Source of the DNA: Okeania hirsuta
GTDB lineage: Bacteria > Cyanobacteriota > Cyanobacteriia > Cyanobacteriales > Microcoleaceae
DNA: 64,000 nt
Reading direction: 5' to 3'
NCBI RefSeq assembly: GCF_003838195.1
Contig: NZ_RCBY01000001.1
Coordinates: 1 to 64,000 of the forward strand
The notes below the pieces were generated by a model. It was not told where the DNA came from and did not search any database. It saw only the letters and a program-made list of their open reading frames with translations. The translations under genes were made by a program, and so were the position numbers. The stretch's first letter is position 1, and every line of letters begins with the position of its first letter. Below are positions 1,103-16,222 of this stretch, in pieces.

Positions 1103-2464
1103 ATGCCAATTCCTATTTCTGCGATCAAAGGAGTTATTTGGCCAGCCTTACCAAACCCTAACAATTCCTTGCTTTTGGCCTTGCAATATCAGTTAGAACA
1201 AACTCAATGGTGGTCTCCTGAAGAAATCCAAAAGTGGCAGATGTTCCAACTCACAGCACTCCTTGCCCATGCTGATCACACTGTTCCCTTCTATCGTCAA
1301 CGACTGGGTGTTTTACTCGAAGTACGCGATCGCTTCCTCAACTATAGTGACCTACAGCAGATTCCGATTCTGACTCGTCAGGATATTCAACAGCAAAGCA
1401 AGGAGATGATTAGCACTGCCTTACCCAAAGAACATTTGCCTACTTCAGAAAGTCAAACTTCTGGCTCTACAGGGCGACCAATTACTTTTCAAACAACCAA
1501 AACAAAAGGAATTTTTTACCGAGCATTAAATCTTCGCAGTCATCTATGGCATCAGCGTAACTTTTCGGCAAAAGTGGCAGCTATTCGAGTGCCTCGCTCT
1601 AAATTACGACAGTCCAAGCAAAAACAAGAGGGTAAGAAAATTTGGGCTGATGCTTTTCCCAGTGGTGCGCTCGTAGAATTGGATAGTGGTAAAACAATTG
1701 CAGAACAGTTAGCTTGGTTAGAAAAGGAAAATCCCGAGCATATACTAACTTACCCTTCTAATATTCTCGCTTTAGCAAAACAAGCCAAGAAGAAAGGAAT
1801 AAAAATACCAAATCTTCAAGCTCTCAGCACATTTGGAGAAGTTGTGACCCCGGAAATACGTTAGGTTTGTCAAGCTGTCTGGAACATCTGCGTTGTTGAT
1901 ATCTATAGCTGTCAGGAAATTGGTCTGATTGCTCTGCAGTGTCCCAAACACGAACACTATCATATTCAGTCTGAAAGCGTGATCGTAGAAATTTTAGACG
2001 AAAATGACCAACCTTGTGCTCCTGGTCAAATTGGGCGGGTAGTACTAACAGATCTTCATAACTATGCCATGCCCTTTATTCGCTACGAAATTGGAGATTA
2101 TGCAGAAGTGGGTGAATATTGTTCCTGTGGCCGAAAACTACCAGTGTTGCGACGAATATTAGGACGAAGCCGTAATCTACTGGTTTTGCCATCGGGGGAT
2201 CTTATTTGGCCTTCATATATACTCAGTAATTGGGCTAAATTAGGTCCTATTCTCCAGATTCAGGTTATACAGAGAAGTGTGGAAGTTATTGAAGTTCGGA
2301 TGGTGCTTTCCAGAGCAATAACTGAGAATGAGGAAGCAATTCTCCATCAACACATTTGCGCAGATTTAAAAAATCAATTCCAAGTCAAGCTTTTGTATGT
2401 TGATGAAATTCCTAGAGCTGCTAACGGTAAATATGAAGATTTTATTTCAGAAGTAGTGGTTTGA
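1103..2464 (+). pseudogene. PaaK/CapK-like AMP-forming ligase, one in-frame stop
   Basis: Resembles phenylacetate-CoA ligase/CapK-type adenylate-forming enzymes. The N-terminal half carries the AMP-binding signature (SQTSGSTGRPITFQTT, about residues 117-132). The C-terminal half has the family motif YAMPFIRYEIGDYAE and a NGKYEDF end near the usual catalytic lysine region. The gene is interrupted by TAG at 1862-1864. The frame then continues without another stop through VCQAVWNICVVDIYSCQEIG, an obvious part of the domain, to TGA at 2462-2464. In this family such enzymes activate aryl or acyl acids; the substrate is not visible here. The preceding methyltransferase gene is broken in the same way. 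Confidence 0.78.
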
Positions 2465-2803
2465 TTTTAGGTGATGATCGAGGCTTTGTTGCATACAGGA
2501 TGATTAGACATCAGGCAACAGCTCATCTGGCAACAGGCAACAGAGAATTAATAAGCTGTACTTCACGCTTCCTAAAAAGTGCTGTAACCATTCTATAACT
2601 GTTTAACCGGACTTAATATCATGGGTAAGTCCTAAAATTGCCAAAGAAAAACTACCTGCACTTTATTCATCTGGCGTTGGTGATTTGAGGTATGATATCA
2701 TGTCCTGATGAAAGTTCTATAGAACTCCGTGACCTTTACGCGACCAAAAAACTTTCTCCTTCTACATCCTGTTTCTGATTCTTTATTCCCTCCTGAGGAG
2801 GTC

Positions 2804-2839
2804 CTCCTGACTTCCCCTCCTGGGAGGGGAAGTCAGGAG
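2804..2839. repeat. Perfect 17-bp stem hairpin in intergenic DNA
   Basis: Bases 2804-2820 pair completely with 2823-2839, leaving a two-base loop (TG). The arms are built from CTCCTGA and CTTCCCCTCC-type units, related to the GGAGTCA heptamers that follow. It sits in the gene-free stretch 2465-3358 with no nearby gene end, so a terminator role is unlikely. A related imperfect copy is at about 32200-32235. Confidence 0.7.
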
Positions 2840-2931
2840 TCAGGAGGAGAAAGAATTACAAAGATGAGGGTAGTTATGACGATTGAAGATTTTTTTTATG
2901 CCCAATTAAACGGATTTGATATAATTAAAAT

Positions 2932-3059
2932 TATAGCAATGTGCGCTGGCATATTTACAAATTACAGTAACTGTCCAATAGCTAAAAGCCTGATATTATC
3001 GGTTTTTTATTCCCCCAGATGAGCTGTTGCCAGATGAGCTGTTGCCTGCGCACAGCGCT
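2932..3059 (-). repeat. Miniature element family A, copy 1
   Basis: A unit of about 128 bp with near-matching ends: TATAGCAATGTGCGC at the left, and the complement of AAGCGCTGTGCGC at the right. The same unit occurs in the other orientation at 42668-42790 and, split by another insertion, at 31390-31786. The inside contains GTTGCC/GAGCTGTTGCC tandem motifs and CAATAGCTAAAAG. No coding capacity. MITE-like by structure; the parent transposon is not in this window. Confidence 0.7.
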
Positions 3060-3065
3060 TTGAAG

Positions 3066-3182
<117 letters not shown>

Positions 3183-3358
3183 AATGGTAGTCCTGTATGG
3201 GTTTTGGTGAAGATATATATTTTTTAATTTCTCCCATACTCCCCATCTCCCCATCCCCCCATCTCCCCACACTCTCTCTACCATTACTATGCACCACCAC
3301 CAAATTAATATCATACACGCGCTTCACCAACGCCATTCATCTCAACTAAGCAACAATA

Positions 3359-5368
3359 CTATTTCCATTCATCCCAAGTATTATTAAAAATAGAAGTTTC
3401 AGGAAAAGCTGTGGGATTACCATTTTCTTGTAAGCGACCTTGTAAAACCTCCAATTCCCATTCCTTAGAAGGCATATCATCAATCAATTCATCAGGAAAA
3501 ATACCTCGCTCCAAAGCAAAATCAATTGTTGTACCAGCAGCAGCACCAGCAGACCATTCAAAAGAATGAACCCGATAAGCAGCAGCAGCAATATAACTTG
3601 TAGCAATAGTCTTCCCCGCTACCAACAAATTATCAATTTGCTGAGGGATCATTGCCCGTAAAGGAATTTGAAAAGGATAAGCAGAACCTTGACCCCTCCT
3701 AATACCTGCTCGTTCAGAATTACCAGGTGCTTCTGCCGGACTTTTTGTCATGCAGGGATGAAAATCTATGGCATAATGACCAATTCCTACACTATCAGGA
3801 AAAACAGTTGCTCTTGCTCGTTGAGGCATTTCTTTCATTGAATTAATTTGTGAATTTTCAGGTACAAAAGCAGCAACACTTCCCCACAAATAATGCAACA
3901 TATCTGACGGTAAATTTTGTAGATAAAAATTATCCCGAAAATTCTTTTTAGCAATATCAACCTCTGCTACTGTAAAACCCCTGGGGCGAGTTTTCCCAAC
4001 ACGACCAATAATGCGTCGCCCCTCCCGCATATAAGGATATTTTGACAACCCATGAGCTGTTCCCATCGGCGCGTCAAATCCAGTCAATAAACGATGGTTT
4101 GGATATTTTTGCTTCACCCCTTCCCCTAACTGAGAGTCAGTAGTACCCTCAACTAACCAATAAAAATAACCGAGAGCATTTTCCTCACCTCGACGGAGGG
4201 TTTCGGCACGCAAACCACCCATCCAACCCCCCGGTTGCAGTTGACCTGTAGCTTGTAGTTGCCCTCGACTGTAAATCAAATTGTCGTCGCGGTTGCCAGG
4301 ACGGTAGTCATTACCCCAAGTCCAATTTTGCATGGAAATATCGCCGGGAAAAATTGTTCGTTTTTTGTAATCTCCTGGTTGCGGTGCGTCTGGTTTCACT
4401 GACCAAATTTGACGATAGGTGAAAACTAGGGGGAAACTAGCTAATCTTGATAATTCATAACTATAGTAGGGTGCATACTGAGAATAAAAGGGTGGTTCCA
4501 CATGGGTTTGAGGTGTTTCGGTTGCTTCCATGGCGAAGGTGTAGGTAAAACCTTGGGTGCAGTAGGAGTCTCTAGTGTCAACGGGGGATGAGGGGTCAAG
4601 ATAGGTTTGTGGATCAATACCGAGACGATAGGGAACATCTGCTAGAGCAATAATTTCTCCGGTTTCCGTAGCTTCGACAACGTACCAGTCTGCACCGCCT
4701 GTTTTTTCTGGGGAAGGTTGGGGTATAAATTGAATTATGGTTTTGTCGAAACGCACTGAGTTTTCGTAACGGTAAGCATCTTCGATAACTTGAGACAGGG
4801 GTTCGGTGTTGATGGGTGGGGTGCCTGCTGCTGGTTGATGTTGGATAGCGATCGCTCTATTGATTTGATTATTGGAAATGTCTAACTCTTTCACAACAGT
4901 ATTGGGAAACCATTTGAATGTTCCTCCACCTTTTTTGGCAGCATCTTGCAACATCTGAAATAGAATACCGTGACCATCGTAGGGCATAAAACAGGAGACG
5001 CTGACCCAACAACGACCGGGATTTAATCTACCGTATTTTTCCTCAATGCGTTCCCGTAATTCTAAGTAACCACGGGGATAAAATAGGAGACTGCGTTGAG
5101 TACCGCGTTCGTCGAGAGCGGATGTACCTTGGGAGGAAATTTGACCACCTACCCAGTCGGTAATTTCGGTGACACAAACGGTGCGTCCTGCTAATAATGA
5201 TTCGTAGGCAGTTGCTGCTCCTGACAAACCGCCACCGATGATGAGTATTTCGCAGGTTTCTTCTTGGTCTGGGGTGCGGGGTGGCGCTGCTAACGCGGGG
5301 GCAATAGTTGGAGTTAGGGAAAATAAGCTGAGAATTAGACTAATTATTGGTTTGGTTTTTTTGAGCAT
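3359..5368 (-). CDS. Exported FAD-dependent oxidoreductase
   Basis: Begins with a signal peptide (basic MLKKTK, a hydrophobic stretch, ALAA cleavage region, residues 1-28). A Rossmann FAD-binding motif follows, ILIIGGGLSGAATAYE (about residues 42-57), and a second FAD-contact region near the C-terminus, NLLVAGKTIATSYIAAAAYR. The whole protein fits the FAD_oxidored (PF12831) type, 669 residues, with no obvious second cofactor domain. Substrate cannot be predicted. It stands alone on the minus strand, with repeat-filled spacers on both sides, so it is probably monocistronic. Expected location is the periplasm or cell envelope. Confidence 0.8.
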   Translation of the reverse strand: MLKKTKPIISLILSLFSLTPTIAPALAAPPRTPDQEETCEILIIGGGLSGAATAYESLLAGRTVCVTEITDWVGGQISSQGTSALDERGTQRSLLFYPRGYLELRERIEEKYGRLNPGRCWVSVSCFMPYDGHGILFQMLQDAAKKGGGTFKWFPNTVVKELDISNNQINRAIAIQHQPAAGTPPINTEPLSQVIEDAYRYENSVRFDKTIIQFIPQPSPEKTGGADWYVVEATETGEIIALADVPYRLGIDPQTYLDPSSPVDTRDSYCTQGFTYTFAMEATETPQTHVEPPFYSQYAPYYSYELSRLASFPLVFTYRQIWSVKPDAPQPGDYKKRTIFPGDISMQNWTWGNDYRPGNRDDNLIYSRGQLQATGQLQPGGWMGGLRAETLRRGEENALGYFYWLVEGTTDSQLGEGVKQKYPNHRLLTGFDAPMGTAHGLSKYPYMREGRRIIGRVGKTRPRGFTVAEVDIAKKNFRDNFYLQNLPSDMLHYLWGSVAAFVPENSQINSMKEMPQRARATVFPDSVGIGHYAIDFHPCMTKSPAEAPGNSERAGIRRGQGSAYPFQIPLRAMIPQQIDNLLVAGKTIATSYIAAAAYRVHSFEWSAGAAAGTTIDFALERGIFPDELIDDMPSKEWELEVLQGRLQENGNPTAFPETSIFNNTWDEWK

Positions 5369-5610
5369 AATTTAGGTGAACTGTTAGTAATCAAATACTC
5401 AAATTTTAGATTAATTTGAACAAACTTGATTTCGAGTCCAATAGATTTATATGACCACCAGTTGAGTAATTAGTCTATGGTTGACGATTTTTATTTTTGG
5501 AGGCTATCATAAATACTATACATTTAAAAAATAAAAAATAATAGAGTAAGAGACTGTTTGTCAAAAAAAGGTAAATATGGCCATAAATAAAGTATCTAAC
5601 GTAGGGAATT

Positions 5611-5731
<121 letters not shown>

Positions 5732-5921
5732 AAAAAATCAATGTCCCGAAAATCTTATGCTAGGGGTCTAAGCAATTCCCTATAGGATGCTACGCGATCG
5801 CGAGTGGGAACTACTCAAATCTTTCCTACTAGATTCAATATAACAGTGGTGCATTAACTCACTACCAAATAAGTAAAAATAGTGATTTTTCGTCTATATC
5901 TACATAATCACACAGAATTTT

Positions 5922-7724
5922 ATGCAAACTGCTCCAATAGATATTGTCTTTACTATATTTTGTGCAATCCTAGTCATTTTAATGCAGCTAGGTTTTGCTC
6001 TTTTAGAAGCAGGGTTGCTTCCTTCCAAGCACACAGTCTCAATCATATTCAAAAATTTTGCTGACTTTGGCGTTAGCTTTATCGCTTTTTTCTTTTTTGG
6101 TTACTGGATATTGAAGGGTTTTGATAATTCCTTACATCCCTTCAATATTATAGTATCAGAACCAGGAAATATTGAGAATGCAAAGCACTTAGTAGATTTT
6201 ATTTACCAGGGAGCTTTTGCTGCAACCGCTGCAACTATATGTTCAGGAGCGATCGCTGGTAGGATGAAGTTGTCTGATTACTTAATAATGAGTAGCTTCA
6301 TTTCTGGCATTATATATCCCCTCTCAGGTTTCCTATTGTGGGAAGTTTTCGATGAAGTATTTAAAGATTACGCTGGTTCAGTCGTAGTACATGCAACTGG
6401 TGGAGCTACAGCCTTAGCAGCTACTTTACTTATAGGGTCTCGACCTGTAAGAGAAAGACGACTACCAGCTCATAATATTCCTCTAGCGACAACAGGTGTA
6501 TTTTTACTGCTCATCGGATGGTATGGGTTTAATATGGGCAGTGTAGAATCTGTTGGGACGCCAGAAGGTTTAAATGAAATTGCTCTGGTTGCCATTAATA
6601 CAACCTTGGCAGCGACTGTCAGTATGATGGTGACGATCTTTCTGAGTTGGTTCAACAATATTCCGAGGCTAACGATCGCAATAAATGGCTTACTGGGTGG
6701 ATTAGTCGGAATTACAGCTGCACCAGATGTAGCAATGATTTGGTATCCATTTTTTGTGGGCGGTGTTTGTGGTTGGCTAGTTTTCTTATATTCAAAATTT
6801 ATTATTGAGGATGAATTTTCATGGGAGGTAATGGATGATCCGGTTGGTGCCGTGATTGTTCACTTGGTTTGTGGTGTAGTAGGAGGTTCCGCGGTAGGAA
6901 TAATTAGGCTTTTTGAGAATGAGCCACATGGAAGAACTCAAATTGGAATTTCTGTGCTAGCTCCCATCTTGGTTTTCCTTTGTTTCATAATGTTTTTGTT
7001 GGCTTTGCACGGGATGGTTGCATCTAATCGGAAATCAAGATTACCAAAAAATCAAGATGAAGGTCTTTTCGCAATGCTTGGTATTCTTAATCGTCTTCGC
7101 AGTGAAAACTCTGAAATAGATAGGGGTTTAGATTTAGCAAATCATCAGGAGACAGCTTATGATATTCCTGGTCCTCTAGAAACTCCTCGGCTATTTCAAG
7201 AAAGGATTGATGCCTTATTCATTCAGTATATTCAGAAAGAGAAAGAGAATGAATTTATTGAAGGGGAAATCTATCCTTCCAGAGAATATGGGAGGAGCCA
7301 TTTTACATATAAAAATGCTGCTAAGGCAAGAAATCTTCCAGACGAAGCGAGTACCAGAATAAGAGCTAATCGTCAACCTTTTGATGTAGCTTTAGAGTCA
7401 TGGCTTGGGGAAGCTTCATCACTTGTTGAAAGGTATTTTAAGCTTTATGGTGATGTTATCAAGATTAATGATGAAAATTTAGTTGAAAACTTTAAGAATG
7501 CAATTCAAGAGGTTGAGCAATATCGTTTCCAACTTAGAAGAAATAGAGAAAATTTCTTTAATCAAAAAATGAACGAAGTTATTAAGCAGTTATGGCATAT
7601 TAGAACGATAGCTAATACACATAATGAGCTTACTCAAGAATCAGTAGAAAAGTTGACATATATGTCAAATGAAATATCTAAATTAAAACAAGAAATTAGG
7701 GCTTTGAAGGGTAGAAATAGATAG
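5922..7724 (+). CDS. Amt-family ammonium transporter with long cytosolic C-terminal extension
   Basis: Residues 1 to about 370 form an Amt/MEP/Rh-type channel with about eleven hydrophobic segments. Family hallmarks are present: FALLEAGL in TM1, YQGAFAATAATICSGAIAGRM (gate phenylalanine), the pore twin-histidine sites VVVHATGG and VIVHLVCG, and the cytosolic RGLDLANHQETAY that resembles the usual GLD...HGE.AY tail. Ordinary Amt proteins end soon after this. Here some 200 further soluble residues follow, ending in a charged, probably coiled-coil helix (about 520-600). ATG at 5922 gives the normal Amt N-terminus. A GTPase gene begins 10 bp downstream. The conserved pore suggests real transport; the tail may couple it to the GTPase (inference). 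Confidence 0.85.
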   Translation: MQTAPIDIVFTIFCAILVILMQLGFALLEAGLLPSKHTVSIIFKNFADFGVSFIAFFFFGYWILKGFDNSLHPFNIIVSEPGNIENAKHLVDFIYQGAFAATAATICSGAIAGRMKLSDYLIMSSFISGIIYPLSGFLLWEVFDEVFKDYAGSVVVHATGGATALAATLLIGSRPVRERRLPAHNIPLATTGVFLLLIGWYGFNMGSVESVGTPEGLNEIALVAINTTLAATVSMMVTIFLSWFNNIPRLTIAINGLLGGLVGITAAPDVAMIWYPFFVGGVCGWLVFLYSKFIIEDEFSWEVMDDPVGAVIVHLVCGVVGGSAVGIIRLFENEPHGRTQIGISVLAPILVFLCFIMFLLALHGMVASNRKSRLPKNQDEGLFAMLGILNRLRSENSEIDRGLDLANHQETAYDIPGPLETPRLFQERIDALFIQYIQKEKENEFIEGEIYPSREYGRSHFTYKNAAKARNLPDEASTRIRANRQPFDVALESWLGEASSLVERYFKLYGDVIKINDENLVENFKNAIQEVEQYRFQLRRNRENFFNQKMNEVIKQLWHIRTIANTHNELTQESVEKLTYMSNEISKLKQEIRALKGRNR

Positions 7725-7734
7725 GAGTTTAGAC

Positions 7735-8622
7735 ATGAACAACGAAATAGATCGAGAACTGAAGAAAATAGAAGAAAGACTCAAACCACCAAGTATTGCT
7801 CTAATTGGTAGAACTGGTGCAGGAAAGAGTAGTCTAATTAAAGCTATTTTTGGGCTAGATGATAATGAAATCAGAGTAGATGTTGGGTTGCCAGTAACAA
7901 AACGTTATAACAAATATCCAAACCCATATAATCCAGATATTCCAATCATACTCTATGATTCTGCTGGTTATGAAGTTAGCAAAACAGATGATTTTTTACA
8001 AGAGACTTTAGGATTCCTTGGGGAAAAATCTCTTTCCAATACCCAATCTGTAGATGACAGTATTCACCTTGTTTGGTACCTCATTCATGCAGGATTAACT
8101 AGGATTGAACATTTCGATCTAAAAGTGATTGAAACAGCACTTAGCTTAAAAATTCCTGTAATCATAGTGTTAAGTCAGTGTGATATTGCTAAACCAAAAG
8201 AGCTTTCTGAACTAAAAAAAAGGCTGAGTGACTCCTTAGCTGAAATTGAACAGAGAGCAAATACTCAACTCAAAATTATGGAAGTTTCTGCCGATCCTAT
8301 TGCAGGCAAGACAGTTTCAGGTCTAAAAGAATTAACAGAAGCGTCTATAAAAGCCATTCCTGAATCATATTCGCAAGCATTTATAACAGCTCAGGCAGTT
8401 AATGTCAAACTAAAAAGGACAGTAGCATACTCTCTTGTTGCTACAGCAGCTGGGGTATGTTTTGGTTCAGCTTTTATTCCTATTCCAGGTTCTACTCCAC
8501 TGAGTATTATTGCAACTCAGCCAACTTTACTAGCATCTATTGCCAAAGTTTATAATCTCGATCGTTTTCTTAATAGTTGTCGCATAAGTGCAACGGTAAA
8601 TAGTAACTCATATTCAGTATAA
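7735..8622 (+). CDS. Small Era/Der-like GTPase with hydrophobic C-terminal helices
   Basis: TRAFAC-type GTP-binding protein, 295 residues. G1 is GRTGAGKSS (25-33), G3 is DSAG, and G4 is the variant SQCD in place of NKxD. The C-terminal part (AYSLVATAAGVCFGSAFIPIPGSTPL ...) is hydrophobic and resembles the start of a DUF697-type membrane-associated module, but is shorter than usual and ends abruptly after a serine-rich tail. GGAG lies 8 bases before the ATG, and only 10 bp separate it from the Amt gene, so the two are surely co-transcribed. Function is unknown; a regulator or partner of the unusual Amt tail is the simplest inference. Confidence 0.75.
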   Translation: MNNEIDRELKKIEERLKPPSIALIGRTGAGKSSLIKAIFGLDDNEIRVDVGLPVTKRYNKYPNPYNPDIPIILYDSAGYEVSKTDDFLQETLGFLGEKSLSNTQSVDDSIHLVWYLIHAGLTRIEHFDLKVIETALSLKIPVIIVLSQCDIAKPKELSELKKRLSDSLAEIEQRANTQLKIMEVSADPIAGKTVSGLKELTEASIKAIPESYSQAFITAQAVNVKLKRTVAYSLVATAAGVCFGSAFIPIPGSTPLSIIATQPTLLASIAKVYNLDRFLNSCRISATVNSNSYSV

Positions 8623-8732
8623 CAGTTATAATTGCTCGTAGTTTTGCTCTATAGTCCTAAAGGGTTTAGCATCCTTTTATGGTTGTTAATGATAGTTGTG
8701 CGCCAGCAAACGGCCGTTTCCTCCGCGACATA

Positions 8733-8755
8733 TTTGCGTAGCATTCCGCAGGAAA
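8733..8755. repeat. Small dispersed repeat (TTTGCGTAGCATTCC type)
   Basis: A 23-25 bp unit also found at 12451, 19241, 54591, 59451 and 61233 with small changes. In its other orientation it can fold as two mini-hairpins with the same TAC loop, TTCC-TAC-GGAA and TGC-TAC-GCA. This copy lies in the short spacer between convergent genes, next to the palindrome AAACGGCCGTTT (8708-8719). Confidence 0.65.
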
Positions 8756-8803
8756 ATACCCCTACTACTAAATTGAAGTGAGGTTGTTCAACCAGATTTA
8801 ATA

Positions 8804-9907
8804 TCACTTAAGTTTTGCTGATCCAAAAGTGACATCAAATTTTTCACACCAGACCACAACATTTGGATAATCTTGCCAATTTATTCCTTCTGGAATGTCA
8901 TAAACTTGTTCTCCTGTAAAACTTTTTAAATCTCCCAAACGCACATAATTTTCTGTGGTATAACTTTCCGGACGATTTTCTTTATGTAATAACAATTTTA
9001 CTGCCGGACCTTCAATGGCAGAAAAGTTTTCCGCTAACCGAACTTGAGTTTTATTACCTGCTTGAATAATTTCTGCTGTACCTTCGGTATCTTCCCCCGG
9101 AGTAATAGTTACAAATTCTCCAGAAGCTAAAACAGTATTTGTCTGAGCTAAAGTTGGATAATTAGAAATAGAAGCAACAATTATTTCTGGTGATAAAATT
9201 TGTGATTGTGCATCTGGACAAACTTGTTTTTCCCAATCACATTTATATAAATATTTTTCTTGCCAACTTAGAGAAATTTCTAACAAATCCCGACTTCCTG
9301 TTATTCCTTGCCCTAAAAATACTAGAATCGCCAAACAGTTTAAAGCAGTATGAATTTTGCGCCATTTGTGAGTCCTATCTTTATATATTTCCGGCACAAT
9401 AGTCAAAGAAAAAATCATCAATATTGAAGCTATTATACCATAATAAAAATGAGAAACTGCCCACTCATAGTCGCGTCGGAAAACACCATCTTGAAAACCT
9501 AAAATTACGATACCTGCTCCGGTTAAGGTCGCAAATACTCCTCGCCATAATTTAGTTTTAGCTTGATAAAGAAATATTAGAGAAGCAACCGTAGTCATAA
9601 AGATGGTTACTATTAATATTGCTAGGGTCATATTTTCACTTTTAAAATCTTTAAAAATACCCTTAAAATATATTGAGTAAGCAATAGCGACTAAAGTTAT
9701 TCCCACAACGGAACCCGTCAACAAATTACCTATTTTTCTATGTTCCGGTCCTACCACTGGAGGAATTTTACTTTTACTTTTATCCGCAGTTTGTAGCCTT
9801 CGTTGACGAGTCTGCCAAGCCAAGTTGAGAACTATACCAATGATTGGGAAAACCACCACAACTGCCAATGCTGGATGTATCAATCCCGCAATATCCTTTG
9901 CATTCAT
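8804..9907 (-). CDS. DUF4079 membrane protein with C-terminal DM13 domain
   Basis: N-terminal residues 1 to about 215 contain several membrane helices and histidines (DIAGLIHPALAVVVVFP, HFYYGIIASILMIF, IHTALNCLAILVFLGQGITG), the pattern of DUF4079, a cytochrome b561-like cyanobacterial family. Residues of about 255-367 match a DM13 domain: ASGEFVTITPGEDTEGTAEI, the core LGDLKSFTGEQVYDIP and the conserved-cysteine end NVVVWCEKFDVTFGSAKL. DM13 has been proposed to act in redox reactions through that cysteine. The fusion suggests membrane-linked electron transfer with DM13 on the outer face (inference). The gene is single, convergent with the Amt-GTPase pair. Confidence 0.75.
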   Translation of the reverse strand: MNAKDIAGLIHPALAVVVVFPIIGIVLNLAWQTRQRRLQTADKSKSKIPPVVGPEHRKIGNLLTGSVVGITLVAIAYSIYFKGIFKDFKSENMTLAILIVTIFMTTVASLIFLYQAKTKLWRGVFATLTGAGIVILGFQDGVFRRDYEWAVSHFYYGIIASILMIFSLTIVPEIYKDRTHKWRKIHTALNCLAILVFLGQGITGSRDLLEISLSWQEKYLYKCDWEKQVCPDAQSQILSPEIIVASISNYPTLAQTNTVLASGEFVTITPGEDTEGTAEIIQAGNKTQVRLAENFSAIEGPAVKLLLHKENRPESYTTENYVRLGDLKSFTGEQVYDIPEGINWQDYPNVVVWCEKFDVTFGSAKLK

Positions 9908-10574
9908 AATTTACCTCTCAGATATAACTTTACATATTATATTTAAGCAGGTTGAGTGTCGGTTAAATTATTTTTTGCTGAAAATTTTCTAAAAATTAGG
10001 TGTTAGGGGAATTTGGCAAGATTGAGAATAGTTGAAAGGTCTTAAAATCTATATCCTGGTATTAAAACTCTATTGTTACTGAAGCATTCTCATAACTGAT
10101 AATTAGAGATGATCATTTCTATAAAAAGAGTAAATTATGTGGTCAATAAAAATGCAAAATATTGCTTTAATTTCAGCAAGAATGAAACAAATAATTCTCT
10201 GAATAGAGCTTTTCAATTTACTGTAATAGATCGAGTTCTTTAGATTAATCTATTAAAAAAGATAGTTGGTGTAATTCATTAGCTCACTATTGCAAAATGA
10301 GGGTAATGAAAGTGCTATTCAGTTTGAGAAAGCCATCAACCAGGAGATAATTAAAACTGTAGACTTTGAGATCAAATACGCCCGGGTTCGGTATAAAAAA
10401 ATGTTTCATTGTCAGCCAGATCGCAAATATTTCTACATTTTATTCCCTCCTGACTCCTAATTAACTAATCTAGTTATACCAATGCTACCGGATTTGATAT
10501 AAACGGACGATATTCACCTCCAAAAAGTCATTCTCTGAAAAGTTGGTGGGAAAATACTTCTGAGGACTCACTCA
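9908..10574. other. Gene-free stretch
   Basis: No convincing coding region. The left part, upstream of the DUF4079 gene, must hold its promoter, but no clear consensus boxes stand out. Around 10480-10520 there is degenerate sequence (ATGCTACCGGATTTGATATA) related to the ends of miniature element family C. Confidence 0.5.
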
Positions 10575-10733
10575 TATCATGTCCGTTGGTATCGTTTGTG
10601 TAAAAGTTAGCGTGGATATCTACAGGAAATTTAAGTTTTTTTCTTGCTCAATTGCCTTCCTGTCTGTTGCCTGTTGCCTTCCGGAGCTGTTGCCTACCTT
10701 TGCTATACAATGCCGATGCTACCGGACATAATA
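10575..10733. repeat. Miniature element family C, copy 1
   Basis: A 159-bp unit bounded by TATCATGTCCG and CGGACATAATA (one mismatch) and flanked by TCA on both sides, which looks like a 3-bp target duplication. A second copy, in the same coordinate orientation, lies at 54062-54232. The interior shares a region ending in GATATCTACAGG plus a CCTTTGCTATACAA arm, and has GTTGCC-type tandem filler in the middle. TNA-type 3-bp duplications are known for the IS1031 subgroup of IS5, a possible source of the mobilising transposase. Confidence 0.75.
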
Positions 10734-10760
10734 TCACGCATAACAACCAAATATAGTAGG

Positions 10761-10782
10761 GGTTAACGGCCGTTAACCCCCT
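10761..10782. repeat. 22-bp perfect palindrome
   Basis: The sequence from 10761 to 10782 reads the same on both strands (GGGGTTAACGG then its complement), inside a slightly longer imperfect palindrome TAGGGG...CCCCTA. It lies 46 bp beyond the stop codon of the minus-strand TPR gene. It could act as its terminator, although no strong T-tract follows, or as a protein-binding or cruciform site. Confidence 0.7.
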
Positions 10783-10827
10783 ACAAATAGTGTATAATTC
10801 GTATGCGTGCGTAAGTCCTGATAAAAA

Positions 10828-11358
10828 TCAACTAAACCAAACTAACCCACTAACAGTCAGAATTATTAGTACTAACGCCACCCAAACAAATTGATTATCT
10901 TTTGTGTTAACTTGACTAGGATCGACAACTTCTAACTTCAGAGTTTTTGGCTTCGGTGGCCGTGATTTCACTTGGGAAACCATAGTGCTACCTCGACGAT
11001 CTTTAGCATCACTTTCACATATTGCCCCCAAGTCAGGAATTTTAGTCATCCATTCTTGCCTGGTTCTCAGTACAGGTGCTTCGAGAATGGCTAATATACG
11101 TTTTGCTTGTTGGCGGGTTTCTAAACGAGGATGACGAGTTAGTTGTTTACAAAGGGCAGTTGCTTCTTGAATTTGGCCAGCCGCTTGATATGCTGTCACT
11201 AACCAGATTTGTACCTCTCCCCCAAATCTTGAATTAAGCTCAATATTGTCTTTAGCAGTTTCTAAATGTTGCACTGAATTACGGTATTGACCTCGCTCAA
11301 AGGCATATTTGCCAGCTTTATATTCAGTTTCAAATAATGTTAGGTTTTCTGAAGTCAC
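10828..11358 (-). CDS. TPR-like protein with C-terminal membrane anchor
   Basis: A 176-residue protein. Residues of about 8-95 are helical with TPR-like periodicity (EYKAGKYAFERGQYRNSVQHLETA, then VQIWLVTAYQAAGQIQEATALCKQL). A basic linker (SRPPKPKTLKLEV) follows, and the final 19 residues (VWVALVLIILTVSGLVWFS) form one membrane helix, so this is a tail-anchored protein with its TPR part in the cytosol. Similar short tail-anchored TPR proteins occur in cyanobacteria; no specific role is known to me. Monocistronic, with the palindrome at 10761 downstream. Confidence 0.65.
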   Translation of the reverse strand: MTSENLTLFETEYKAGKYAFERGQYRNSVQHLETAKDNIELNSRFGGEVQIWLVTAYQAAGQIQEATALCKQLTRHPRLETRQQAKRILAILEAPVLRTRQEWMTKIPDLGAICESDAKDRRGSTMVSQVKSRPPKPKTLKLEVVDPSQVNTKDNQFVWVALVLIILTVSGLVWFS

Positions 11359-11745
11359 AATCCCTGTTAATTAGTTTTTGATATATTTAAAATTAATCTT
11401 GGTTATTATATCAATTTTTTGATCGAAGAATTTTCAACCCACTGTGATTGTAGCAATTTACAAAAGTAATGCTAAACTTATCCTCCTGATATTTTAGCCT
11501 GATGGGGAAATAGAAAACTAAGTATAGCAAAGTTTTTGCTCATTGGTACTATAGGAAATAGTGCTGCAATTCCGCATTGGTCAGATGCAAGTGGCCTTTG
11601 TTCCCTATTCCCTACTATATATCTTGATAACAAAAAAAATCTGAGATTCTCCTGTTTCGTTTTTAGGAGAAACCCAGTTATAGAATTTTTATTTATTTGT
11701 ATCCAATATTAAAATTTATAGTAGATGCAATTATAATTTAATTTC
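11359..11745. other. Gene-free stretch
   Basis: AT-rich spacer upstream of the TPR gene. It contains the phrase AGTATAGCAAAGTTTTTG (about 11521-11538), which recurs at about 58120-58135, and a fragment of the TTCCCTATTCCCTA heptamer type. Nothing else recognised. Confidence 0.45.
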
Positions 11746-12221
11746 TTAGCGAGACTGGCGACGACGGGAAAGGAACATTCCACCACCAATGAATGCTAAA
11801 GCTGCAATGCTATTAGGATCTGGTACACGCACTTTTGGATCTGAAAGGAAATCACTGTACATTTTTTTGTATGTTAGTTCAGAGATGGCACCATTTATAC
11901 CAATTCTTTGTAAAGCTGCGCTTAATAATTGTCGATCGGACCTTATTGCACTGACTATTCTCATCTTTAATATTACAGCGGTTTTCATTTGGGTAGACCA
12001 CAGTAGGAACTTTCCATGGAATGTCCCTACAAAGTTTTGTTTGTGAAGATGTGGTTCATCAATTTGAAAAGCGCTGTAAGTGCAACTTCATGGAGAAATG
12101 GTATTATACCGTTAAAGTTAACTTCTAAACTCCTAACTTGTCCTAGTTCTTCTCCGAAGTAAAAATCCCAGACAGAGTTTTCGTATTTTTCACCAGCATG
12201 CAAACCGTTATCAGCTTTCAA
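11746..12221 (-). pseudogene. PEP-CTERM protein remnant
   Basis: The downstream part ends in a PEP-CTERM-like sorting signal: VRVPDPNSIAALAFIGGG, a hydrophobic helix, then SRRRQSR. In other cyanobacteria this targets exported proteins to exosortase. Upstream, 12027-12221 encodes a stretch (ENSVWDFYFGEELGQVRSLEV, FNGIIPFLHEV) in a different frame from the sorting-signal part. A frameshift near 12000-12030 is likely, close to a small repeat GGAACTTTCCATGGAATGTC. No signal peptide is visible, so the N-terminus is missing as well; a dead IS5 element starts at 12247, just upstream of the remaining 5' end. Confidence 0.45.
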
Positions 12222-12300
12222 GGAGAGGTAATAATTAATTATTAATGGCTTTGTTGCATGAAAGTTGCATTCGCGACGGCTCCCCCGAAAATTCCATCAA

Positions 12301-13280
12301 CTAAATTTCTACTTTGTAGCTTTCAGGTAACCCAAGTTGAATCATGTGGTTAAGGATAGCGCACTGTATAAATAACTCCACTGCTTGAGTCTCAAATTTT
12401 CGTCGTCGCAACTTGCCTCCGAATATCACTTTGAGCCTCAACATTGTTGTTTTCCTACGGAATGCTACGCAAACGGATCAGGAGCGCCGATGGTATCCAC
12501 TCTCTCGTTTCCATTTTTGACGTCCCACTCTACGAGTCTCTCTGAGATTTGAGTTCCTGGGATCAGCCGGAGCTTTACATTTGCCATGCTGCCAGATGAC
12601 TGCATTTTGACGCGGTGGTATGGTTGGTTTAGCTCCCCTTTTACTGGCTGCCTCGTAGCACTTGCGTTGATCATAGGCTCCATCACCAGATACTTGCCCA
12701 ATCTCACCCTCTACTCCCTCCAATCAGTAGCAAAACACTTGATCGTCACTAACATTGTTAGTTGTTACCACAGCACTAACAATTTCCCCAGTTGCTTCAT
12801 TGACACCTAGATGTAACTTACGCAATTGTACAGGTTTACTTACACCATGAACTCTTGTTTTCCATTCCCCTTCTCCATACACTTTCACCCCTGTAGAGTC
12901 TACGACTAGATGCATGGCCTCTTGGGCGACGGGCTGGGACTACTGGTATCTCAATATTCAATTTACTCAGGCGACGGGACAAGGTACTGTGATCTGGTAC
13001 TGGTAGCTCTAACCCCATTCAGGTAAATATAGATTCCAAAAATCCCTCGGTTTGTCGTCCTACCAAGCTCAACAGAGTAGCAAGAGTTGCCATTAATTCC
13101 ATAGCAACCTGACTATAGGTATGAGATGCCCCCCGACGTCCAGTTTTCTCTGTTGTCAGCCACTGCTCTATCATTTGATTACTCAGCCAAAATGTTAGAC
13201 TCCCCCTTTGTTTCAAGGAAGCATCGTATTGCTGACCAGTTACTTACTCTGTATTGGGATTTGGACTTGGACTTACTCAT
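12301..13280 (-). pseudogene. IS5-family transposase, broken
   Basis: Reads from MSKSKSKSQYRVSNW at 13280 to PESYKVEI at 12301. Recognisable blocks are LTFWLSNQMIEQW, GRRGASHTYSQVAMELMATL, PVPDHSTLSRRLSKL, the DDE-region HLVVDSTGVKVYGEGEWK, QVSGDGAYDQRKCYEA, and the C-terminal AVELFIQCAILNHMIQLGLP. Damage includes TGA at 13019-13021 where tryptophan is expected (IFT-W-MGLEL), a small insertion with a frame change near 12920, a frame change near 12840, and an SDR inserted near 12451-12475. It cannot produce a working transposase. Confidence 0.85.
12451..12475. repeat. Small dispersed repeat inside a transposase gene
   Basis: Starts TTTCCTACGGAATGC, ends TACGCAAACG. It interrupts the IS5-type transposase just before the conserved C-terminal MLRLKVIFGGKLRRR block. 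This shows the tiny repeat arrived after, or together with, decay of the transposase. Confidence 0.7.
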
Positions 13281-13426: not shown

Positions 13427-16105
13427 TCAATCACATTCCAAAATACTAAACTTGCTGACAGGATAATCTAGGGGCAGAAATGTATAGCCTAATGGCGAAC
13501 AACTAGATTTCACGACTCTAGTAAAAATAATTCTTGATTCCTGGCGATCGCCACTTGGTAAAAAAGTTATTTCTCCTGTAGCACCCTCAGAACTAAAATT
13601 TTCACTTGCTAAAATTTGTTGCAGGGCGATGCGATTTAACTCTTGACGTTCTGGAAGTGATTCTAATGCTGTAATCAAGGCTCTAGCTGCATCATAAGCA
13701 AAAGCCGTACGCCAACTAACAGTTCCTCCCCAAATGTTTTTTGCTTGCAGTGGAAAATCTGGATCGGGGCTATTCAAGCTGTGCCACGGTGTAGCTACTA
13801 CAACATTTTTCTCTGCTTCTTGAGCACCAAACTTGAGAGTATAGTTACTATAGAGGTTTTCTCCAGTAATTATCGGTAAATTGAGCTGCCAATTTGCTTT
13901 GATTACCTCTATTGCCTTCGCTAAAGTGGAAATATCTGGCAGTAATACAATTGCAGTAGCTTTTTGTTTTTCTACTCTATTGTTCGCAGCACTGGCATTA
14001 AAAGAAGTCCTTGATAAATCAAAACTGTCATTCATATCTTTAACTATTTTGCCACCACCAGCACTCAAACTAACCATAAATTTATTTTTGAGAGATTCAC
14101 TGTAAATATCATTAGGATTATCAAACAGAGCTACTATTTGCTGTTGATCAGTAGATTTATTAATTAAGTAACTTGCCATTGCTTGAGCCATTGTGGCATC
14201 AGATGGTATCATCCTAAAGAAAAAATCATTGCGATTTGATAATTTAGAAGCACTAGCAGTGGGAGAAATTAAAACCAGTTTATTCTTTTCATAAATTGGA
14301 GCTACTTCCATCGTGATTTCACTAAAAGTATGACCAATTACTGCCAAAACTTGACCTGTTAAAACCAGATTATTTGCTATTTTTACTGCTTGCTCTGGAG
14401 AGTTGCCATCATCAACAATAATTACAGTTAAACCCTTGCCTCCAATCAAATTATCGCTCAGGTTTATGGCATTCTGAGCTTGAGCAACTCCCCGTAATTT
14501 TTCTAAACTATAGTTGAGAGCTTGTGACTCACCTGTCATTGGTGCTACTATGGCTATAGTATAAGCGTCAGTATTGCTAGCAGCTAGTCTGGCATTATTC
14601 AGATAAATCAGGATTTCTAGATCGTTAAAGTATTTTTTTCTAGCTGTTTCTAAAAGTTTGACTGCTTGCAAATAATCACCATCAGCAAAAGCTTTAACTC
14701 CCTCTTCTTTTTCTTTGGGTGCGGAACCTGGAATCAGAATTTCTTCCCCACAACTCAAATTATCATCCAGTTTTAAAGGACAAGTTGTTGGTGCTTCTGG
14801 TAAAATAGCAATTAAGACAGCGATCGCTCCTAGTGTGAAAAGGGAAATATTGCCTAACCATTTATTGACTTTGGGTGTGGTTTCTTGATATTTACTCTTG
14901 AAGTTCTGTATTTTTTGCTGCAATGGAAAGTCAGATAAATAGTTTTTCTTTGCGGGAGCGGGTTGTTTGCTCTGGGTAGGTTCAATTTCTGCTTGTACTT
15001 GCTGGTTGTAGTTAGCAAGACGTTCCAAAATGTCTTCGGTTGTTTGGGGGCGACACTGAGGTAAATTTGCCATCATCTCATCAATTAAGTCTGCTAATGT
15101 TTTTGAGATTTGAGTAGCATGGTGTCGCCACATTAATCTACCACTCTGAGGATCGGTAGGCAAATTAGTAGGATCTTGTGCTGTGACTAAATAAACTATA
15201 GTTCGAGCAATGGCAAATACATCCGACTGTCGTGTGATTTTCCCTTCATACTGTTCTGGGGATGTGTAACCTTGAGAAATCATCCCAGTCACATCTTTGC
15301 CTTCAAATTGCCTTAAATATGTTTCTGTAACTTGCCTAGTCGCACCAAAGTCAATTAATGCTAGTTGACCCCATTTCTGCTTTTGGGAATCTTGTTGATG
15401 GTCAGTGTGATTTTTTTCATTTTCAACCTCCTGTTTGTGGTCTAATGTTTCTCTGGTTTGTTCTGGATCATTTCCTAGCTGTGCAACATTTTCTTCGGTA
15501 AGTGAAATGGAAGATAAATTATTTGCTCTGCTAGCTTTTCCATCTGTTTGTTGACTAGCTTCTTGTTTAGGCAAATTTTCATAAGATCCAGAGGGTTGTT
15601 TGGCTCCATTATGATTGGAGTTTTGTGCTGGGAAGCTACGCAACATGATATTTGTTGGTTTAAGATCCCGATGGATGCAATGATGCTGATGAAGTTTAGC
15701 AATGATTTCTACTAATTGTGTGACCCAGGCGATCGCTTGCTCTTCTTCTATGGGTTGATTATGATGAATTTGTTGTAACCAGTCAGATAAATTTATACCC
15801 TCAATTTTTTCCATTACCAGACAGTGTAATGGTTCATCTCCCGCTTCTGACCAGATAAAGTATCCTTCTGGTTCAACTTTTGGTAATCCAGGTTCATGTA
15901 AATATGTTAAAACTTTTGCTTCTTGCTCAAACAAAGAAATTACTTGTTCTATTTCTTCGTCTTCTATTTCCCTTGGCACTTGCAATATTTTCATAATTTT
16001 TATCGTACCACCATCATCAACTTCCCAAGTTTGACCAAAACCACAGTCTCCAATAAGTTGAATCGCTCGATAGTGCTGTTGTAATATTTGTCCAGGATTA
16101 ATCAT
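13427..16105 (-). CDS. Ser/Thr protein kinase fused to a periplasmic ligand-binding domain
   Basis: A Hanks-type kinase occupies about residues 1-365: glycine loop IGDCGFGQTWEV, catalytic IHRDLKPTNIML, DFG in LALIDFGATRQV, and activation-loop GYTSPEQYEG. A single membrane helix follows at about 425-440 (ISLFTLGAIAVLIAI). After it comes a Leu/Ile/Val-binding-protein type domain (Peripla_BP_6) from about 520, beginning YTIAIVAPMTGES and containing VIGHTFSEITMEVAPIYE and FAYDAARALITALESL. This is a one-protein receptor: ligand sensed outside, phosphorylation inside (inference from topology). Unusual is a low-complexity insert of about 92 residues between HRDLKPTNIML and the DFG block. ATG at 16105 is preferred over an upstream TTG, because MINPGQIL is the usual start of cyanobacterial kinases. 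Confidence 0.85.
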   Translation of the reverse strand: MINPGQILQQHYRAIQLIGDCGFGQTWEVDDGGTIKIMKILQVPREIEDEEIEQVISLFEQEAKVLTYLHEPGLPKVEPEGYFIWSEAGDEPLHCLVMEKIEGINLSDWLQQIHHNQPIEEEQAIAWVTQLVEIIAKLHQHHCIHRDLKPTNIMLRSFPAQNSNHNGAKQPSGSYENLPKQEASQQTDGKASRANNLSSISLTEENVAQLGNDPEQTRETLDHKQEVENEKNHTDHQQDSQKQKWGQLALIDFGATRQVTETYLRQFEGKDVTGMISQGYTSPEQYEGKITRQSDVFAIARTIVYLVTAQDPTNLPTDPQSGRLMWRHHATQISKTLADLIDEMMANLPQCRPQTTEDILERLANYNQQVQAEIEPTQSKQPAPAKKNYLSDFPLQQKIQNFKSKYQETTPKVNKWLGNISLFTLGAIAVLIAILPEAPTTCPLKLDDNLSCGEEILIPGSAPKEKEEGVKAFADGDYLQAVKLLETARKKYFNDLEILIYLNNARLAASNTDAYTIAIVAPMTGESQALNYSLEKLRGVAQAQNAINLSDNLIGGKGLTVIIVDDGNSPEQAVKIANNLVLTGQVLAVIGHTFSEITMEVAPIYEKNKLVLISPTASASKLSNRNDFFFRMIPSDATMAQAMASYLINKSTDQQQIVALFDNPNDIYSESLKNKFMVSLSAGGGKIVKDMNDSFDLSRTSFNASAANNRVEKQKATAIVLLPDISTLAKAIEVIKANWQLNLPIITGENLYSNYTLKFGAQEAEKNVVVATPWHSLNSPDPDFPLQAKNIWGGTVSWRTAFAYDAARALITALESLPERQELNRIALQQILASENFSSEGATGEITFLPSGDRQESRIIFTRVVKSSCSPLGYTFLPLDYPVSKFSILECD

Positions 16106-16222
16106 CTTCCTACAAGTCAAAAATCAAAAGTCAAAGGCATATTAAAATATACAGTCACCTAGTCATCATATTAAATCTGGTGTTGCACAATAGAGAATGA
16201 TATTCTAGAATTTGATTGAGAG

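Follow-up and report, generated by a model that had tools for sequence, protein, structure and literature searches.

An ammonium transporter gene (Amt) with a long cytosolic tail and the GTPase gene behind it form a real, unusual, narrowly distributed and eroding locus, which is restricted to the genus Okeania as far as seen. The locus was analyzed in a DNA stretch of 64,000 nucleotides, here called the window, from an Okeania genome of 8.79 Mb that is 99.99% complete. Our preferred reading, held with middling confidence, is an Okeania-restricted, eroding operon of an Amt sensor and a GTPase, in which tail and GTPase are coupled when the pair is intact. PII is known to block Amt proteins, and fusions of Amt to kinases are known as well. 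A GTPase as partner type seems to be new, no description of an Amt-GTPase pairing having turned up in the literature searched, although the theme of an Amt with an added signaling partner is already known.

The locus comprises the following features:

3359..5368, minus strand: FAD-dependent oxidoreductase gene (PF12831), divergent neighbour and synteny anchor
5922-7724, plus strand: Amt ORF, 600 aa
5922..7160, plus strand: Amt transporter domain, residues 1-413, pore complete (PF00909 and alignments)
7125..7160, plus strand: canonical Amt C-terminal motif GLDLANHQETAY, residues 402-413 (alignment with other Amts)
7161..7721, plus strand: Amt tail, 187 residues (414-600), cytosolic, predicted helical (no family match; AF2; identity blocks)
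7723..7727, plus strand: ribosome-binding site AGGAG, overlapping the Amt stop TAG at 7722-7724; same in both orthologous loci (L031, L032)
7735-8622, plus strand: GTPase ORF, 295 aa, 10 bp past the Amt stop
7735..8575, plus strand: homologous part of the GTPase, 280 of ~404 residues (MMR_HSR1, E 1e-8; orthologue and family alignments)
8576..8622, plus strand: 15 unrelated codons after the breakpoint, arising where the GTPase gene lost its 3' third (orthologue DNA alignment)

A preliminary description of this DNA had placed the GTPase 10 bp behind Amt, and both reading frames were recovered in this layout. In each of the three tail-bearing genomes the spacing amounts to 10-14 bp and the ribosome-binding site overlaps with the stop codon of Amt, and pair and spacing stay while the downstream flanks differ among the three. 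On the left flank, the FAD gene was present in 11 of 11 related genomes checked. No NtcA box (GTAN8TAC) was found near the operon.

The transporter domain and its ammonium site

A Pfam profile search matched residues 9-413 of the window Amt to PF00909 with 248.4 bits against a cut-off of 23.2 (E 1.4e-73). In NCBIfam, the protein scored 271 bits, below the threshold of 343.3 for the amt subfamily TIGR00836, and it is therefore a divergent Amt; identity to the uptake Amts of Microcoleaceae is ~35-40%. Individual residues were read from alignments with AmtB, AfAmt1 and Ks-Amt5, and with 72 cyanobacterial Amts. The Phe gate (F99, F203), the His pair (H157, H314) and the selectivity filter (W140, S207) are all kept, as are D149 and W200, which bears out the earlier statement that the pore residues are conserved.

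Among solved structures, the best relatives of the window Amt are Ks-Amt5 and other long Amts, with 129 bits versus 87 for AmtB. Ks-Amt5, an Amt-histidine kinase (PDB 6eu6), holds two NH4+ within the membrane via Q24, E31, N47, D50, T51, T109 and T112 (PMC5764959). At these positions the window Amt has Q22, E29, N45, D48, F49, T105 and S108, five of seven being identical, with T51 replaced by F and T112 by S. The Q, E, N, D set (QEND) is absent from AmtB and AfAmt1 in the alignment. Both proteins have a full pore and a C-terminal cytosolic extension; they differ in that the window tail is unrelated and contains no histidine kinase, a separate GTPase gene replacing the fused output domain. The pore-closing residues F27, Y30 and F34 of Ks-Amt5 correspond to F25, L28 and L32 in the window Amt, and since two of these three are not kept, transport by the window Amt may continue.

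In a sample of 73 cyanobacterial Amts, the site was QEND in 26, NENV in 42 and TYSA in 5. All 21 proteins with a C-terminal extension of at least 100 aa are QEND, and the 42 NENV Amts of the uptake type are short without exception, in a sample in which long frames were deliberately included and the site residues read afterwards. Cyanobacterial Amt-signaling fusions (e.g., the ~1228-codon frame G000:C157) resemble the window Amt in the QEND site and the extended C-terminus; their outputs are PAS, kinase, phosphatase or cyclase-like as judged from sequence, and their tails look unrelated to that of the window Amt. The 18 signaling fusions form a clade of their own (96/99), outside of which lies the trio of the window Amt and its two orthologues. 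In the tree, this trio falls together with four short QEND Amts, close to the NENV uptake clade, on a very long branch of 2.3-2.6 substitutions per site that makes its exact place uncertain. Because the trio groups with short QEND Amts, QEND is probably ancestral, having been lost once, and we rejected it as proof of sensing. The site nevertheless makes ammonium sensing by the window Amt possible, and Q/D versus N/V in helices 1 and 2 could serve as a simple marker of sensor-compatible versus uptake-type cyanobacterial Amts.

Sister short QEND Amts (L155, L156; 43% identical) stand divergent from a gene for a response regulator-histidine kinase hybrid. The closest non-orthologous Amts (L015:210-2502 in G422 and L014:493-3283 in G434; ~37-46% identical) are immediately followed by a 272-aa gene without Pfam match, whose product looks helical or coiled-coil in its N-terminal part and Rossmann/TIR-like in its C-terminal part. 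The G434 copy of this gene is broken by a frameshift, and the next gene matches PDC-M14B weakly in PADLOC. The Amt and 272-aa protein of G422 and G434 represent a second pair of an Amt and a soluble partner. We found no homology of the window tail to the coiled-coil protein beside the sister Amts.

The C-terminal motif and the helical tail

Behind the last membrane helix, the window Amt carries an insertion of ~23 residues, followed by the C-terminal motif in the form GLDxxxHxExAY. In AmtB, the region of this motif becomes ordered upon binding of PII/GlnK. Pore residues and C-terminal motif are common to the window Amt, AmtB-GlnK and Synechocystis Amt1-PII; the window Amt differs by the insertion and the 187-residue tail, and AmtB is without QEND.

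No curated family for the tail was found in Pfam, NCBIfam or PADLOC, and neither Pfam nor NCBIfam gave a kinase, cyclase or PAS match. A single PHROG match (E 0.003), to an entry with no assigned function, was not taken as meaningful. AF2, with three sequences in the input, modeled the tail as helices at low confidence (pLDDT 46). Residues 578-595 follow a perfect 3-4 heptad pattern (L578, M581, I585, L588, I592, L595), and identity blocks between the orthologues locate the strongest conservation of the tail in its last ~50 residues. On a trimeric Amt, we infer that this heptad stretch would suit a trimeric coiled coil. The preliminary description had reported a long, partly coiled-coil tail of about 200 residues; a long, family-less and predicted helical tail with a heptad was found, its length being corrected to 187 residues, with the Amt C-terminal motif preceding it.

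The truncated GTPase and the distribution of the pair

The GTPase is of the MMR_HSR1+DUF697-like kind. MMR_HSR1 was matched in the window copy, Pfam DUF697 is recognized solely in some of the distant relatives, and common to the window GTPase and these relatives is a G domain followed by hydrophobic glycine-rich helices. Alignments identify the P-loop GRTGAGKS, a G3 motif DSAG, a G4 motif SQCD and the first hydrophobic helix; as G4 is non-canonical, the nucleotide specificity is only putative. Orthologues in Okeania SIO1I7 (L031) and Okeania SIO2B3 (L032) measure 403 and 404 aa. In both comparisons, the DNA identity of 84-91% stops abruptly at window base 8575. The ~124 residues missing from the window copy correspond to the second hydrophobic glycine-rich hairpin and the C-terminal helices, which are common to the wider family, and they were found neither elsewhere in the window nor in the rest of the genome. 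Past base 8575, the intergenic DNA is pieced together from short dispersed repeats, which would fit a deletion or rearrangement; the break may also be a misassembly. The possibly membrane-associating C-terminus noted earlier belongs to a hydrophobic module that is longer in the orthologues and of which the window copy has the first half only. A working GTPase in the window genome, as the preliminary description had supposed, is not supported, given the loss of the C-terminal residues.

The SIO1I7 copy has lost G3, DSPG being changed to YSPD, and is thereby also without DxxG. In the G domain, non-synonymous and synonymous substitutions number 24 and 9 on the window branch, 50 and 21 on the SIO1I7 branch and 6 and 13 on the SIO2B3 branch; the non-synonymous excess over the SIO2B3 branch gives Fisher p values of 0.008 for the window and 0.003 for SIO1I7. 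Only the SIO2B3 copy of the GTPase looks complete and constrained. Between SIO1I7 and SIO2B3, dN/dS of the GTPase C-terminus is about 1.3. For Amt it amounts to 0.27-0.43 and for the tail to 0.45-0.66, compared to 0.05-0.09 for the neighbouring FAD gene, and the fast evolution of Amt could reflect a relaxed constraint on the whole locus.

Full-length Amt with the tail was present in three of five Okeania genomes and in none of 57 other genomes of the same family. The tail was absent from all 385 genomes of other cyanobacteria, and a species-wide contig scan (84,980 species, one genome each) recovered it at two loci only, so that a general cyanobacterial Amt-GTPase system was rejected. Tails standing without the GTPase in most genomes, named earlier as the finding that would speak against a linked pair, were not seen: in this sample of one genus the GTPase gene accompanies the tail in all three tail-bearing genomes. 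In the Okeania genomes G419 and G422, the FAD and DUF362 genes are present and the pair is absent between them. In a genome of a sister genus (G320:C109, L070:6265-6461), the same FAD gene is flanked by 57 codons left over from the GTPase C-terminus, which are 65% identical and interrupted by several stops. This relic, together with the losses within Okeania, makes it probable that the pair, or the GTPase at the least, predates Okeania and has since disappeared more than once.

Distant relatives of the GTPase occur in 17 other cyanobacteria and on plasmids. None of the 17 cyanobacterial neighbourhoods and none of the 4 plasmid neighbourhoods opened contains an Amt beside the relative, and viral contigs yielded no relative. 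Compared to these MMR_HSR1+DUF697 GTPases, the window copy thus differs both in its position beside an Amt and in lacking the second hydrophobic hairpin and the C-terminal helices. A FeoB_N match of the GTPase remained sub-threshold; FeoB is alike in working only, as a GTPase paired with a permease, whereas the window GTPase is unfused and of another GTPase family, and the transporter fold is a different one.

One relative (L055 in G231, 2416-12612; 32% identical) is flanked on both sides by TPR-CHAT genes and has a SAVED/Cap4-like gene in its vicinity, a context that hints at accessory or conflict genes within the wider GTPase family. Full-length distant relatives on Acinetobacter and Klebsiella plasmids (L094, L095), one a small and one a conjugative plasmid, overlap a second GTPase-domain gene. 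Other plasmid relatives stand alone, one of them on an E. coli plasmid of 108 kb that also carries phage-type genes.

Coupling of the pair and alternative readings

In the intact form of the operon, represented by SIO2B3, the Amt trimer would bind external ammonium and serve either as sensor or as gated channel. In the cytosol, the three tails of the trimer would come together in a helical bundle or coiled coil that keeps the DUF697-type GTPase at the membrane, so that the occupancy of Amt by ammonium and the GTPase's nucleotide state would affect each other. Both the scaffolding by the tail and the coupling of ammonium to GTPase state are what we infer for the intact pair. In the window genome, where half of the membrane module of the GTPase is missing, the coupling is probably broken, and Amt may act alone or be on its way out. 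The ammonium-sensing or gated-transport system of the preliminary description is in keeping with the pairing in three of three genomes and with the sensor-type NH4+ ligands, but it shrinks to a single genus, to three of five Okeania genomes and to a locus repeatedly lost.

A more specific version, in which the SIO2B3 pair is a two-component ammonium transceptor whose Amt trimer recruits and switches the GTPase via a trimeric tail, we regard as unlikely. If true, this transceptor would be a bacterial G-protein-coupled ammonium receptor and would differ both from the Amt-kinase fusions and from control by PII. As the window GTPase is broken and the SIO1I7 copy has lost DxxG, SIO2B3 offers the only complete pair for study. 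To our knowledge, DUF697-type GTPases are common and mostly without assigned function; a lineage tying one of them to a known membrane partner would provide a concrete handle on both.

Alternatively, Amt and GTPase could be ordinary neighbours, i.e., a third, divergent Amt with a structural tail and an accessory, uncoupled GTPase. This we consider possible, if rather doubtful. The complete Amt pore, the GTPase relatives without Amt in other cyanobacteria and on plasmids, and the rarity and decay of the locus all agree with it, but it leaves unexplained why the tight spacing and overlapping ribosome-binding site are the same in three species despite a changed downstream flank, and why no tail occurs without the GTPase gene.

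Coupling in a nitrogen-sensing operon also has to be weighed against a conflict or defence module, in which an IRG/dynamin-like GTPase is the membrane effector and Amt with its tail serves as its membrane anchor or trigger. An arms race, not nitrogen sensing, would then lie behind the fast evolution and the repeated loss, and the dN/dS of the GTPase C-terminus, the patchy gene presence, the relative between CHAT-TPR genes near a SAVED gene and the plasmid-borne relatives fit such a history. The AF2 model of the SIO2B3 GTPase best matched IRG (Irga6), EHD2 and dynamin-like folds in Foldseek, but the model is weak (pLDDT 63) and the TM-score of 0.33 is low, so the likeness comes mostly via the G domain. 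PADLOC gave a weak match to Eleos LeoBC, which spans the P-loop region only (residues 2-46 in the window copy, 2-93 in L032), and no dynamin (LeoA) partner was found beside the window GTPase. No defence gene was seen beside the window pair either, and we know of no defence system that employs an Amt. Taken with its counter-evidence, a defence role appears improbable.

Replacement of PII/GlnK by the GTPase as gate of the window Amt, suggested in the preliminary description, is very improbable: the GTPase is co-encoded with Amt, and the extra tail and 23-residue insertion lie right where PII would dock, but the C-terminal PII-responsive motif is retained, PII proteins are encoded in the window genome, cyanobacterial PII binds Amt1 in Synechocystis (PMC6603209), and the GTPase is broken in the window while the Amt frame stays open. 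Elsewhere in the window genome (G000:C361:1-1471; L004, L005, L159), a further Amt lies in pieces, with three in-frame TGA codons; a partial PII gene directly precedes it, and the two are probably a glnK-amt pair of pseudogenes.

Two other genes of the window deserve mention besides the preferred Amt-GTPase operon. At 1103-2464, a PaaK/CapK-looking adenylate-forming enzyme, judged by eye, extends over two ORFs, the first part giving no Pfam match at E 1e-3; this is probably a broken gene. At 13427-16120, an N-terminal Ser/Thr kinase is joined to a C-terminal periplasmic-binding domain (Peripla_BP_6/ANF receptor), an uncommon receptor-kinase arrangement.
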